Positions 8,333 through 36,872 of a stretch of DNA of 37,030 nt are shown piece after piece. A program made the position numbers and the translations under genes. Positions within the stretch are counted from its first letter, which is position 1; each line of letters opens with the position of its first letter. The notes beneath the pieces were generated by a model. The model ran no database searches. It was given only the letters and a program-made list of their open reading frames with translations, and was not told the origin of the DNA. This stretch comes from Treponema sp. (GTDB lineage Bacteria; Spirochaetota; Spirochaetia; Treponematales; Breznakiellaceae), in assembly GCA_031274035.1 (NCBI GenBank), contig JAISQR010000395.1:1-37030 (forward strand), read 5' to 3'.

Positions 8333-8497
8333 CTAGGAGTTTGTTGCGCTTCGCGCATAAAATAGTATAAATATTCATAAACATGAATATTTATACCATA
8401 CAAACTCCGAATACTCGAAGAGTACAGCATGCCCGTTGATCGGGATTTTTTGCATATTTATGCAAAAAATCCACAAGTGCAACAGGCTGCTAGCAGC
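8333..8497. repeat. Family A composite palindromic repeat, copy A1
   Basis: Ends ctaggagtttgttgc / gcaacaggctgctag form an imperfect TIR (12/15). Contains the modules GCGCTTCGCGC, TATAAATATTCATAAACATGAATATTTATA and TCCCGATCAACGGGCATGCTGTACTCTTCGAGTATTCGGAGTTTG (minus strand), shared with other copies in the window. Confidence 0.85.
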
Positions 8498-14002: not shown

Positions 14003-15211
14003 CTACTTTACATTATAACGTGTTTTTAATCTGTTAATAACCGTTTCAATGGCGGCTAACTCTTCATCGGTAATGGATTCCGACGCAATATACTCGTCAA
14101 TCCGGGCGATAAGCTCCCTGAGTAAATTGATATCCGACTGTCTTACCGCATCATCAACAGGAGCGTTTACGGATGACGAGGCATCAGGAAGCGGTATGCT
14201 TTCCGCAAGGAAACGGGAAATATTTTCACCTAAAGCGGTATTCTGACTTTCAAAGCCCAGTTCATCTTCCGCTGAAAGATAAAGGGAGAATTCCTGGGTT
14301 TCTCCCCGGGCCAGGGGGATAGGATTAAAGTAGTAACAGACCGCCGAATCTCCAACTGAATAGGGCGGATAGTTAAAATTCCTTCCCGCTGAATAGGATA
14401 GTTTCCAGGAAACATCGCTTAACCGCTTCCAGTTGGCAAAATGGACGGCATCCGGTTTCCCCCTCTCTCCCGCCGGCGCTATACTTCCCATGAGAGATAA
14501 ATGGTTATTCCGTGAAACCCACCGCTGTTCCGCCCCGCCGCTTTCTATAAGGGTTTCCAAATTGATAGATCGTGAATCTATGATGAAGTGCGGCTGGGAA
14601 CCGCCTTCCCCCAGATTTGTATCCAGAAGCATGCGTATTCCAACAGAAGCCTGCTGGGACGCGCGGTTTTCAAGCCGCAGAGTCATACGGATCCCGTTGC
14701 TTGCCTGAGAACCGGGGGTCTTAATAAAGGCAAATTCCTGAGTTACCGAGAGAAAGGATGATTCAAAGATAACCGCCGGATTTTGCCCCGTACCTCCGAT
14801 CCTGGTTCTGAAAGCAGATGTTTCGCCCAGTTTGTAGGAACGGTCATTCACTATAACCGAAAGAAAGCTGGTCCTGGGGTCCTGATCTACAAAGAAAGCC
14901 TCGTAACGCGAAGGAGAAGTCATGTAATAAAGAGAAAACCGGCCGGTTCCCTCGTGCAAGACCAGCCGAATACGGCCGTCCGTATATTCAGAAGCGGAGA
15001 GAAAAAACGGCAGCGCGCCCATTAAAAGGCTTATAACAAGAAAATACCGCCGCCAGGACGCCGCTAAAAAATTTTGACGGTAGATCCTTTCCCAAAACTC
15101 GGTTAGTGCGAACCGCGAACCTTCGGTTCGATGGTTCGATGGGAAAGGCTTGGGAAATCCTCGGTATTTTAGAAATTTCAATATATCATGGGCCGTTCCC
15201 TGTTCTTTCAT
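14003..15211 (-). CDS. Exported protein of unknown function with repeat-derived N-terminal segment
   Basis: Open frame overlapping the upstream stop by ATGA. Hydrophobic signal (YFLVISLLMGALPFFLSAS) starts only after about 50 residues. Confidence 0.75.
   Translation of the reverse strand: MKEQGTAHDILKFLKYRGFPKPFPSNHRTEGSRFALTEFWERIYRQNFLAASWRRYFLVISLLMGALPFFLSASEYTDGRIRLVLHEGTGRFSLYYMTSPSRYEAFFVDQDPRTSFLSVIVNDRSYKLGETSAFRTRIGGTGQNPAVIFESSFLSVTQEFAFIKTPGSQASNGIRMTLRLENRASQQASVGIRMLLDTNLGEGGSQPHFIIDSRSINLETLIESGGAEQRWVSRNNHLSLMGSIAPAGERGKPDAVHFANWKRLSDVSWKLSYSAGRNFNYPPYSVGDSAVCYYFNPIPLARGETQEFSLYLSAEDELGFESQNTALGENISRFLAESIPLPDASSSVNAPVDDAVRQSDINLLRELIARIDEYIASESITDEELAAIETVINRLKTRYNVK
15087..15157. 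repeat. Family C palindromic element, copy C2 (inside the 14003-15211 CDS)
   Basis: tcccaaaactcggttagt (15090-15107) is identical to 22031-22048. Arms CCTTTCCC/GGGAAAGG. A nested 33-bp module at 15108-15140 matches the reverse complement of 16375-16407 at 31/33. Confidence 0.8.
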
Positions 15212-16297: not shown

Positions 16298-16588
16298 CTG
16301 CTAGGAGCCTGTGGGATTTATCCCGATCAACGGGCATGCTGTGCTCTTCGAGCATTTGGAATTTGTAAGACATAATCGAACTATCGAACCGAAGGTTCGC
16401 GGTTTGCCTTCATTTTATATTCATGCTATTTTATGCGCTTCGCGCGCAAAAACTCAAAAAATCGACCGCAAGGCGATTGCAAACCTTCGGTTCGATTTAC
16501 CCTGCAAACTGCGTAAGGATGCCGGGTGATCGGAATTTTTACGACACAAGCGGCGCAAAAATCAACAAGCGCAACAAACTCCTAACAG
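16298..16588. repeat. Family A composite palindromic repeat, copy A2 (long)
   Basis: Ends gctgctaggagcctgtggga / gcgcaacaaactcctaacagc. Contains TCCCGATCAACGGGCATGCTGTGCTCTTCGAGCATTTGGAATTTG and the ATCGAAC...GGTTTGC module. Confidence 0.8.
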
Positions 16589-18923: not shown

Positions 18924-19039
18924 CTAGGAGCCTGCGGGACTTTGGTGAATTTTTGCATATTCATGCAAAAATTTCGATTAACGCGGCTCCTTTGGGAGTT
19001 TGCAAGGTATAAATATTCATATTTATGAATATTTATACC
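18924..19039. repeat. Family A composite palindromic repeat, copy A3
   Basis: About 100 bp nearly identical to the reverse complement of 26604-26707, ending in the palindrome tataaatattcatatttatgaatatttata. Confidence 0.85.
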
Positions 19040-21985: not shown

Positions 21986-23851
21986 TTGAAGGAAAAACCG
22001 GTTTACGGAAAGGTTTGTATTATGAACTTATCCCAAAACTCGGTTAGTATTGGGATAAGCTACGGAAAAAGCGGCCAAAGGCCCGCTTTTTCCCCTAATT
22101 CAAAGGCAGCTTTCCCAAAAACTGAAGTTTTGGGAAAGCCGCTTATTATTTTGCTTTTCCTGATGTCTGTTTTGACTGTTCATGCGGAAGAACGGAATCC
22201 CATAGACTTGATACTGCTTCTGGATACCTCTGCCAGTATGAGTGAATATTACCCGCAGCTTAACGGTTATCTAACAGGGCCTTTTCTTAAAAAATATTTA
22301 CAAGTTGGGGATACTTTTCATCTAATTTCTTTTTCCAGCACGGCGCGGCTGGAGATATCACGCCGTATTCAGGAACTGGGGGATGTAGAAACCGTTATAG
22401 CACGTATCCTTCTCATGCTCCCCGTATACCCTGATTCCGATATTGCCGGCGGTCTTAATTATGCTGAGGCGTATGCCGCTTCTGTGCCGGGTGAACGCTC
22501 CAAAAAAATTGTCCTTGTATCGGATGGAAATTTAAATGGCAATTCCTTTTCGGATCAATCGCTTACCATTGATAAAATTGTTTCAGCATCCGCCCTGCGC
22601 TTAAAAAAAGATAGAATAGAACTTGAATTTGTCAGTATCCCTGAAAATATGCTTTCTTCCGTTCAAAGTCCGCCGGCAGCAACGGCTGCCAGGCCCCCCG
22701 CCTCAGAAACCCCGGCCAGGCCCGGACAGACGGTTCCCGGCTCTTCGTCTCCCGCTCCCCAAGGGGCATCCAGTCCGCCGGTAACAACGGCTCCCAGGCC
22801 GCCCGCCCCAGAAACCCCGGCCAGGCCCGGACAGACGGTTCCCGGCTCTTCGTCTCCCGCTCCCCAGGGCGGCTCCGGCCCTTCGGCAGCAACGGCTCCC
22901 AGGCCCCCCGTCCCAGAAACCCCGGCCAGACCAGGACAGGCGGCTCCCGGCTCTTCGTCTCCCTCACCCCAGGGGGGTGTTTCCGGCACACCGAGCGCCG
23001 ATATGGGCGGTATTGATAGAAATCAGACGCAGACCGGTATAGATCAGGGTGATGTTTCCGCCATACAGGGCGGCGTACCCGGTACCGATAGAGAACCGCA
23101 ACCGCAGGGCGGTGTCTCCGGCATACCGAGCAGCGGTACGGGCGGTATTGATAGAAATCAGACGCAGACCGGTATAGATCAGGGCGGAATCTCCCGCGGT
23201 CAGAACGCCGGTCTTCCATTGCCGCTCTTAATTGCGTTGGGGATTTTTGCTCTGGCTTTGATCGTCTTGATAATATTCCTTGTTGCAAGACGTTTGCATG
23301 AATCGCCGAATCGGGCGATGGCAAGCGCATCGGGTATGTCGGCCATCAAGACGAAGGATGCGAAAATGCTGGCGGAATTTGCCGTAAATCAGACACGGCG
23401 CAAATCCCGGCCCCCCTCTTCACCGCCTAAAAAGGTCTCTCTCATGGGAACAAGCGCTCCTGAGGCGGTAGATGACGGGCCTCTGATGCTATCTCTCTTT
23501 GTTGAGGATCAGAATACCGCTATAGGCAGGCGGAATATCCATGTTGTTAAAGAGGGGTATTCCTTTAGTATAGGCGGCGGAAAATCAGATTTCCTAATTT
23601 TCCTTGTACCAATACCTCCCCATATTGCCGATATCCGCTTTGACGGCAGGCAGTGCACCCTGATTCCGCGAAAGCCGCAATTTTTTCCGGATATAGGTTC
23701 CGGGCCGGTTTCTGATTGTATAGGGGAAACGATCCGTATTGTTTCACAACGGGGCTACGAGCTTTTTATCCGTATAGAGCGGTATGAGGACCCCCTGAAA
23801 GCCCTGAACCGTTTGCTCAACTCGGTAAAGGTTGTCGGATCGAATGTATAA
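21986..23851 (+). CDS. VWA-domain membrane protein with Pro-rich tandem repeats and FHA-like cytoplasmic tail
   Basis: MIDAS LILLLDTSASMSEYY; 3 x 35-aa repeats; TM LPLLIALGIFALALIVLIIFLVARR; possible FHA-like C-terminus (YSFSIGGGKSDFLI). Confidence 0.8.
   Translation: MKEKPVYGKVCIMNLSQNSVSIGISYGKSGQRPAFSPNSKAAFPKTEVLGKPLIILLFLMSVLTVHAEERNPIDLILLLDTSASMSEYYPQLNGYLTGPFLKKYLQVGDTFHLISFSSTARLEISRRIQELGDVETVIARILLMLPVYPDSDIAGGLNYAEAYAASVPGERSKKIVLVSDGNLNGNSFSDQSLTIDKIVSASALRLKKDRIELEFVSIPENMLSSVQSPPAATAARPPASETPARPGQTVPGSSSPAPQGASSPPVTTAPRPPAPETPARPGQTVPGSSSPAPQGGSGPSAATAPRPPVPETPARPGQAAPGSSSPSPQGGVSGTPSADMGGIDRNQTQTGIDQGDVSAIQGGVPGTDREPQPQGGVSGIPSSGTGGIDRNQTQTGIDQGGISRGQNAGLPLPLLIALGIFALALIVLIIFLVARRLHESPNRAMASASGMSAIKTKDAKMLAEFAVNQTRRKSRPPSSPPKKVSLMGTSAPEAVDDGPLMLSLFVEDQNTAIGRRNIHVVKEGYSFSIGGGKSDFLIFLVPIPPHIADIRFDGRQCTLIPRKPQFFPDIGSGPVSDCIGETIRIVSQRGYELFIRIERYEDPLKALNRLLNSVKVVGSNV
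22027..22140. repeat. Family C palindromic array, copy C3 (three hairpins inside the VWA-protein CDS)
   Basis: CTTATCCCAA/TTGGGATAAG (22027-22059), GGAAAAAGCGGCCaaaGGCCCGCTTTTTCC (22064-22093), GCTTTCCCAAAA/TTTTGGGAAAGC (22109-22139). Confidence 0.85.
22668..22982 (+). repeat. Three tandem 105-bp repeats (35 aa each)
   Basis: Units start at 22668, 22773 and 22878; each encodes a variant of PPAATAPRPPxPETPARPGQTVPGSSSPAPQGxS. Confidence 0.9.
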
Positions 23852-23900: not shown

Positions 23901-23982
23901 TCCCGATCAATGGGCATGCTGTACTCTTCGAGTATTCGGAGTTTGCACGGTATAAATATTCATATTTATACCGTGCAAACTC

Positions 23983-36729: not shown

Positions 36730-36803
36730 CAGATGCCAAAGAAGCCCGCTATGGCTCCTTGCAGCCGCGGACACTTCGTGTCCGATTGTACTTGTGGGTG
36801 TTT

Positions 36804-36872
36804 TTGCAAGGTATAAATATTCATAAATATGAATATTTATACCATTTTATGCGCGAAGCGCAACAAACTCCT
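36804..36872. repeat. Family A composite palindromic repeat, copy A6
   Basis: tgcaaggtataaatattcataaatatgaatatttataccattttatgcgcgaagcgcaacaaactcct is nearly the reverse complement of 8333-8400. Confidence 0.85.

Follow-up and report, generated by a model that had tools for sequence, protein, structure and literature searches.

A gene for a putative exported protein in a Treponema sp. contains a MITE of 80 bp in the middle of its signal peptide, between the n-region and the hydrophobic core. The gene lies on the reverse strand at 14003-15211 of the window, by which is meant the whole stretch of 37,030 nucleotides that was analysed. Identifying the insert as a MITE that makes 4-bp target duplications goes beyond the initial annotation of this DNA, which had described an in-frame palindrome. 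At least five separate signal-peptide insertions belong to the same family, which suggests that an export signal that is cut off may tolerate insertions.

The best explanation, which is probably the right one, is that a non-autonomous MITE was inserted in frame, is translated as an extended n-region, and is tolerated since the signal peptide is cleaved off. That the insert is translated, that the protein is exported and that the addition is neutral we infer. A transposase acting in trans would insert the element mostly at random, and selection would then remove most coding insertions. The 80-bp derivative landed between the n-region and the hydrophobic core of the 14003-15211 product, where it would be read as part of an n-region that can take extra length. 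With the core and the cleavage site kept, export would still work. The added residues would leave with the cleaved signal peptide, and the mature protein would be unchanged. Insertions at the boundary between n-region and hydrophobic core (the n/h boundary) would thus owe their survival to lying at one of the few intragenic places where selection tolerates them.

Two insertions and their empty sites

Table 1. Features of the two interrupted genes, with positions in the window.
Feature	Position	Strand	Remarks
Host gene, conserved exported protein of unknown function, 402 aa	14003..15211	-	Orthologues in 41 of 61 genomes searched
ATGA overlap with upstream TPR gene, fixes start codon	15208..15211	-	Same overlap in same-genus genome
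Target duplication GGTA, 4 bp, copy 1	15079..15082		Family-wide 4-bp duplications
MITE copy, 80 bp, in frame	15083..15162	-	Encodes extra residues between n-region and h-region; family match, empty-site comparison
Nested GAACC palindrome module	15108..15140		In loop of first hairpin; also in other repeats and elsewhere in genome
Target duplication GGTA, 4 bp, copy 2	15163..15166		Flank of 80-bp copy
Signal peptide hydrophobic core YFLVISLLMGALPFFLSA	14993..15046	-	Read from sequence
VWA-domain exported protein with second insertion	21986..23851	+	PF13519
Target duplication TTAT, 4 bp, copy 1	22020..22023		Flank of VWA copy
Full-length MITE copy, 119 bp, in VWA signal peptide	22024..22142	+	85% identical to family consensus
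Target duplication TTAT, 4 bp, copy 2	22143..22146		Flank of VWA copy

The initial annotation placed a palindrome at 15087-15157. The palindrome is there, but these limits are 4-5 bp short on each side; the true ones are 15083-15162, to which the GGTA repeats (TACC on the coding strand) are added. This copy is a derivative of the family element, with an enlarged GAACC palindrome in the loop of its first hairpin. The module had been described as nested, and it does recur at 16375-16407 in the window and in a larger genomic repeat that is unrelated.

The insertion point is at about codon 17, and 28 residues are added. The product begins with MKEQGTAHDILKFLKYRGFPKPFPSNHRTEGSRFALTEFWERIYRQNFLAASWRRYFLVISLLMGALPFFLSASEYTDG, where the palindrome-encoded part comes after LKFLKY. 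No Pfam match was found for this product. The host gene is intact, and its mature part differs from that of a same-genus relative by a dN of 0.10 and a dS of 0.49. This means that the gene has been under constraint, although these figures do not date the insertion and cannot place the constraint after it.

Whether the insert is part of the protein depends on where translation starts. It had been argued that the ATGA overlap fixes the start codon, and this holds up: the upstream gene's stop shares bases with the ATG at 15211, and both the overlap and the start codon are kept in the same-genus orthologue (L010). A sequence scan found no ATG, GTG or TTG within the 80-bp insert and, as claimed, none between it and the hydrophobic core. 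The first in-frame start-type codon past the insert is an ATG 20 codons on, within the core. Translation from either of the in-frame starts upstream of it, ATG1 or TTG11, reads through the insert. With no start codon between insert and core, export by this signal requires that the insert be translated.

The 80-bp element and one repeat together make 84 bp, or 28 codons, and without these the gene matches the empty site of a same-genus genome (G001) with no gap. The orthologue there begins with MKDGYNARELLKRRRYSLTASIGRYVLVISL and is 80% identical over the rest of the protein. On the coding strand, the excised 80 bp read GAGGATTTCCC...GGGAAAGGATC. Removing them, along with one TACC, leaves CTAAAATACCGTCAAAATTTTTTAGCGGCGTCCTGGCGGCGGTAT, which aligns by eye without a gap to CTAAAACGACGGCGTTATTCTTTAACGGCATCCATAGGGCGGTAT in G001. 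There is a further, separate 9-nt difference upstream of the insertion site. Other orthologues in the family have ordinary short signal peptides.

The VWA protein was rightly noted to carry a second insert. Its gene minus 123 bp reads LKEKPVYGKVCIIILLFLMSVLTVHAEERN, and the G001 orthologue, which is empty at the identical position, reads LKKKPVCAKVRIIILLFLMTVLTVHAEEGK, again without a gap. The same-genus genome is therefore empty at both loci, and no unrelated unique sequence was found at the site, which is what the proposed comparison of orthologues had to settle. The VWA protein also contains three tandem 105-bp (35-aa) proline-rich repeats, at 22667-22981.

A repeat could also have been misassembled into these genes. 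The assembly is in 590 contigs with an estimated contamination of 5.9%, and repeats are found at many contig ends. Both loci, however, are internal to one 37-kb contig and have clean 4-bp duplications, and independent assemblies show the same pattern. An artefact of assembly or binning is very improbable.

Both copies fold strongly, with a z of -3.4 for the 80-bp copy and -7.0 for the VWA copy. They might then be regulatory hairpins at the 5' end of the mRNA, tuning translation or mRNA stability and kept for that, with the peptide as a by-product. Many copies of the family do lie close upstream of start codons. But the insert is conserved in no relative examined, and the copies sit in unrelated genes, which makes this explanation improbable.

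The element family

The family to which both copies belong is a family of MITEs. The ends are terminal inverted repeats, GAG[G/C][A/C]TTTCCCAAAAC in inverted orientation. Target duplications of exactly 4 bp were found around 24 of the 54 copies with clear ends, versus 0.9 expected from shuffled flanks; none of the 54 has a longer one. Such fixed 4-bp flanking duplications are the signature of a transposed MITE. The copies are short (36-181 bp where ends are clear, 119 bp at full length), numerous, and without a transposase of their own. No recognisable transposase turned up at PF01609 loci or within inverted end pairs 0.6-3.6 kb apart, in a search of stretches of a fragmented draft genome with the PF01609 profile only.

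The palindrome is not a product of chance, given how often its parts recur in the genome. The outer core CCCAAAACTCGGTTAG has 50 copies versus 10 for a reversed control (at most 2 mismatches), the end motif GAGGMTTTCCCAAAA has 109 matches versus 2 for the control (at most 1 mismatch), and the inner module has 40 significant matches.

Full-length copies of 119 bp fold into three hairpins (z about -7). At 36-39 bp the short forms are nearly perfect palindromes; intermediate forms occur too. Canonical copies of 119 bp have three open frames out of six. Together with a 4-bp duplication they add 123 bp, or 41 codons, and with several frames open a frame-neutral insertion is possible. Many family copies have a frame-breaking length.

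Most copies stay out of genes. Among the 55 examined in this genome 52 are intergenic, while around 80% of the sequence is coding according to a simple gene finder. This means that coding insertions are strongly selected against.

In a sample of 200 genomes of the same bacterial family, 118 contain the end motif; copy number runs from 0 to about 92 per genome, and the distribution is patchy. The great majority of named matches belong to one isolate series of metagenome bins labelled Treponema or Spirochaetaceae, which, to go by the isolate codes, come from termite guts. Full-length element matches are nearly absent from other families of the order.

The genome contains other repeats as well. 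The GAACC module is present within several unrelated larger repeats (L002-L006, L087-L098), many of which sit at contig ends; repeat families in this genome therefore swap modules. Other abundant intergenic palindromes (GGTATAAATATTCATA..., GCGCAACAAACTCC) are found in the window at 8357-8397, 18999-19039, 23942-23982 and 36803-36843, and on many contigs. They reach roughly 40-90 copies per Mb in this genome and are absent or almost absent from the same-genus sample. Some 37-bp palindromes near gene ends (L154, L170, L172) have inverted, not direct, flanking repeats; these may act as transcription terminators.

Insertions in other signal peptides

Copies were sampled by screening this genome and its relatives, which gave 241 element clusters by end motif and 215 by profile. 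Counting both window copies, five in-frame insertions at the n/h boundary were found, in five unrelated genes and three genera. The further three are a lipoprotein of this genome (L362: MMKKVFF, 140 bp, FFFLLFAAMLRLLSSCSN), a TPR protein (L212: MRKKILVS, 119 bp, LYIIFLSLSCVPAFAQ) and a third protein (L408: MKNLFIA, 134 bp, LKVFVFLLVLSAAVGPAFA), the last with the caveat that an alternative start is possible at a GTG directly after the element. The duplication is TCCC in L212 and imperfect in the other two (TTTT/TTTC, GCGC/GTGC). All three have empty relatives: L434 (MKKCGLFFSLFFPALMLWPVLSC), L442 (VRRKTLLSLLILSLSGVSVFAQ) and L462-L464.

An added 28-48 residues before the core is a large change, and the inserts are absent from relatives, so they may be recent. 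The host genes could thus be turning into pseudogenes whose proteins are no longer properly exported. Yet in all five cases insert length plus 4 is divisible by three, the reading frame is kept and the downstream frame is intact, even though so many copies are of a frame-breaking length. The core and cleavage region are also unchanged. Damage of this kind is quite unlikely.

Outside signal peptides, one internal insertion was found, a partial element in a Fur-like regulator (L271, 2504-2557). About four others are C-terminal (L213, L221, L257, L276), where the element replaces or extends the C-terminus and supplies a new stop codon. Apparent N-terminal fusions, of which L124, L137, L224, L226, L254, L402, L416 and L152 are examples out of many, were rejected. 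In these a plausible start codon follows the element and precedes the conserved protein, which probably puts the element in the leader. Matches that resemble the element in L425 (histidine kinase), L356 (methyltransferase-like NPP motif), L098 and L195 are ordinary protein motifs that match by chance. A possible further N-terminal insertion, L134 (C126:4576 of this genome, MKTKRLLKFSQNPVSINMGLIVKS), was left out of the count because its contig ends after 59 bp.

The n/h-boundary region makes up about 1.4-1.7% of codons, as found by a simple hydropathy rule and not a trained predictor. With the boundary taken as 2%, five of about 10 coding insertions falling there has a p near 7e-7. Without the two cases that prompted the analysis, three of eight remain, with a p near 4e-4. 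Depending on what is counted, the nominal enrichment p ranges from about 1e-8 to 4e-4.

There is an asymmetry in these counts. In cytoplasmic genes, an N-terminal insertion is readily discounted if a start codon is available further on. A conservative null therefore considers N-terminal insertions only, against the share of genes with a hydrophobic N-terminus, which is 33%, or 22% after multi-span proteins are removed. This yields a p of about 0.004 to 0.0005. The enrichment in signal peptides that had been predicted is thus supported on small numbers, with three further n/h cases versus one internal cytoplasmic and about four C-terminal ones. An insertion bias toward signal peptides is likely but not proven.

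Such a bias could also come from the transposase, if it favours AT-rich or otherwise particular sites that the codons at the n/h boundary happen to match. The target duplications are 74% A+T, the codons of hydrophobic cores are T-rich, and the intergenic DNA that is home to most copies is AT-rich. Three of the five signal-peptide sites nevertheless have targets with G or C (TACC, TCCC, GCGC), and the 24 duplications show no fixed target motif. Target preference in place of tolerance is rather unlikely.

If tolerance is the reason, a simple rule may lie behind the location bias: insertions survive where the peptide they encode is discarded. Cleavable signal peptides might then be a general safe harbour for protein-coding mobile palindromes. 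Frame-neutral MITEs would repeatedly accumulate at the n/h boundary across this bacterial family, the n-region being both extendable and discarded after export. This wider claim is put forward tentatively, and the chances are somewhat against it. In this way a long N-terminal extension could be added to an export signal in a single event. Close to such repeats, start codons are easy to mis-annotate. A palindrome family in gut spirochaetes, with precise empty sites in relatives, also offers natural insertions that can be polarised.

Relation to known systems

Most of what is known about protein-coding palindromes comes from Rickettsia and Wolbachia. To our knowledge, how hosts tolerate them has so far been an open question. 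A literature search, with most subscription journals outside it, found no earlier report of a MITE family splitting signal peptides, no papers on MITEs in termite treponemes and none on transposable elements in signal-peptide n-regions. It appears to be new that a MITE family, in this family of spirochaetes, has split existing signal peptides time after time at the same place.

REPs are short palindromic repeats that are mostly intergenic (PMC3733652). The elements described here are likewise short, palindromic and mostly intergenic, and the short forms of 36-37 bp look similar, but they differ in having paired inverted ends starting with GAG[G/C] and 4-bp duplications. RAYT-associated REPs are recognised by a GTAG/CGTC-tagged hairpin and no target duplication, a description that the element does not fit. 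We know of no REPs mobilised by RAYT proteins that make 4-bp target duplications or have paired inverted ends.

Yersinia YPAL/RU-2 and other MITEs have been found fused to reading frames, and at one Yersinia locus a signal peptide is partly made of the element (Delihas, PMC2229807). As here, a MITE is fused in frame to coding sequence. The Yersinia element, however, contributes to a newly formed signal peptide of what may be a new gene, whereas here the pre-existing signal peptide of a conserved gene is split, with its n-region on one side of the element and its core on the other.

Going by behaviour, the closest known system is that of the Rickettsia palindromic elements (RPE; Ogata et al. 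2000, 2002), palindromes of around 100-150 bp that are found intergenic and in frame in conserved genes (reviewed in PMC2229807, PMC10969869). Whether RPE have a target duplication is left undecided in PMC2229807. In both systems palindromes lie in frame within conserved genes, are absent from orthologues and leave the frame open, with five such cases here. The host phylum is a different one, the sequence may be unrelated, and the likeness claimed is of the 'works like' kind, not membership of the RPE. Here, moreover, there are clear 4-bp duplications, and coding insertions concentrate in signal peptides, whereas those of RPE are in many enzymes.
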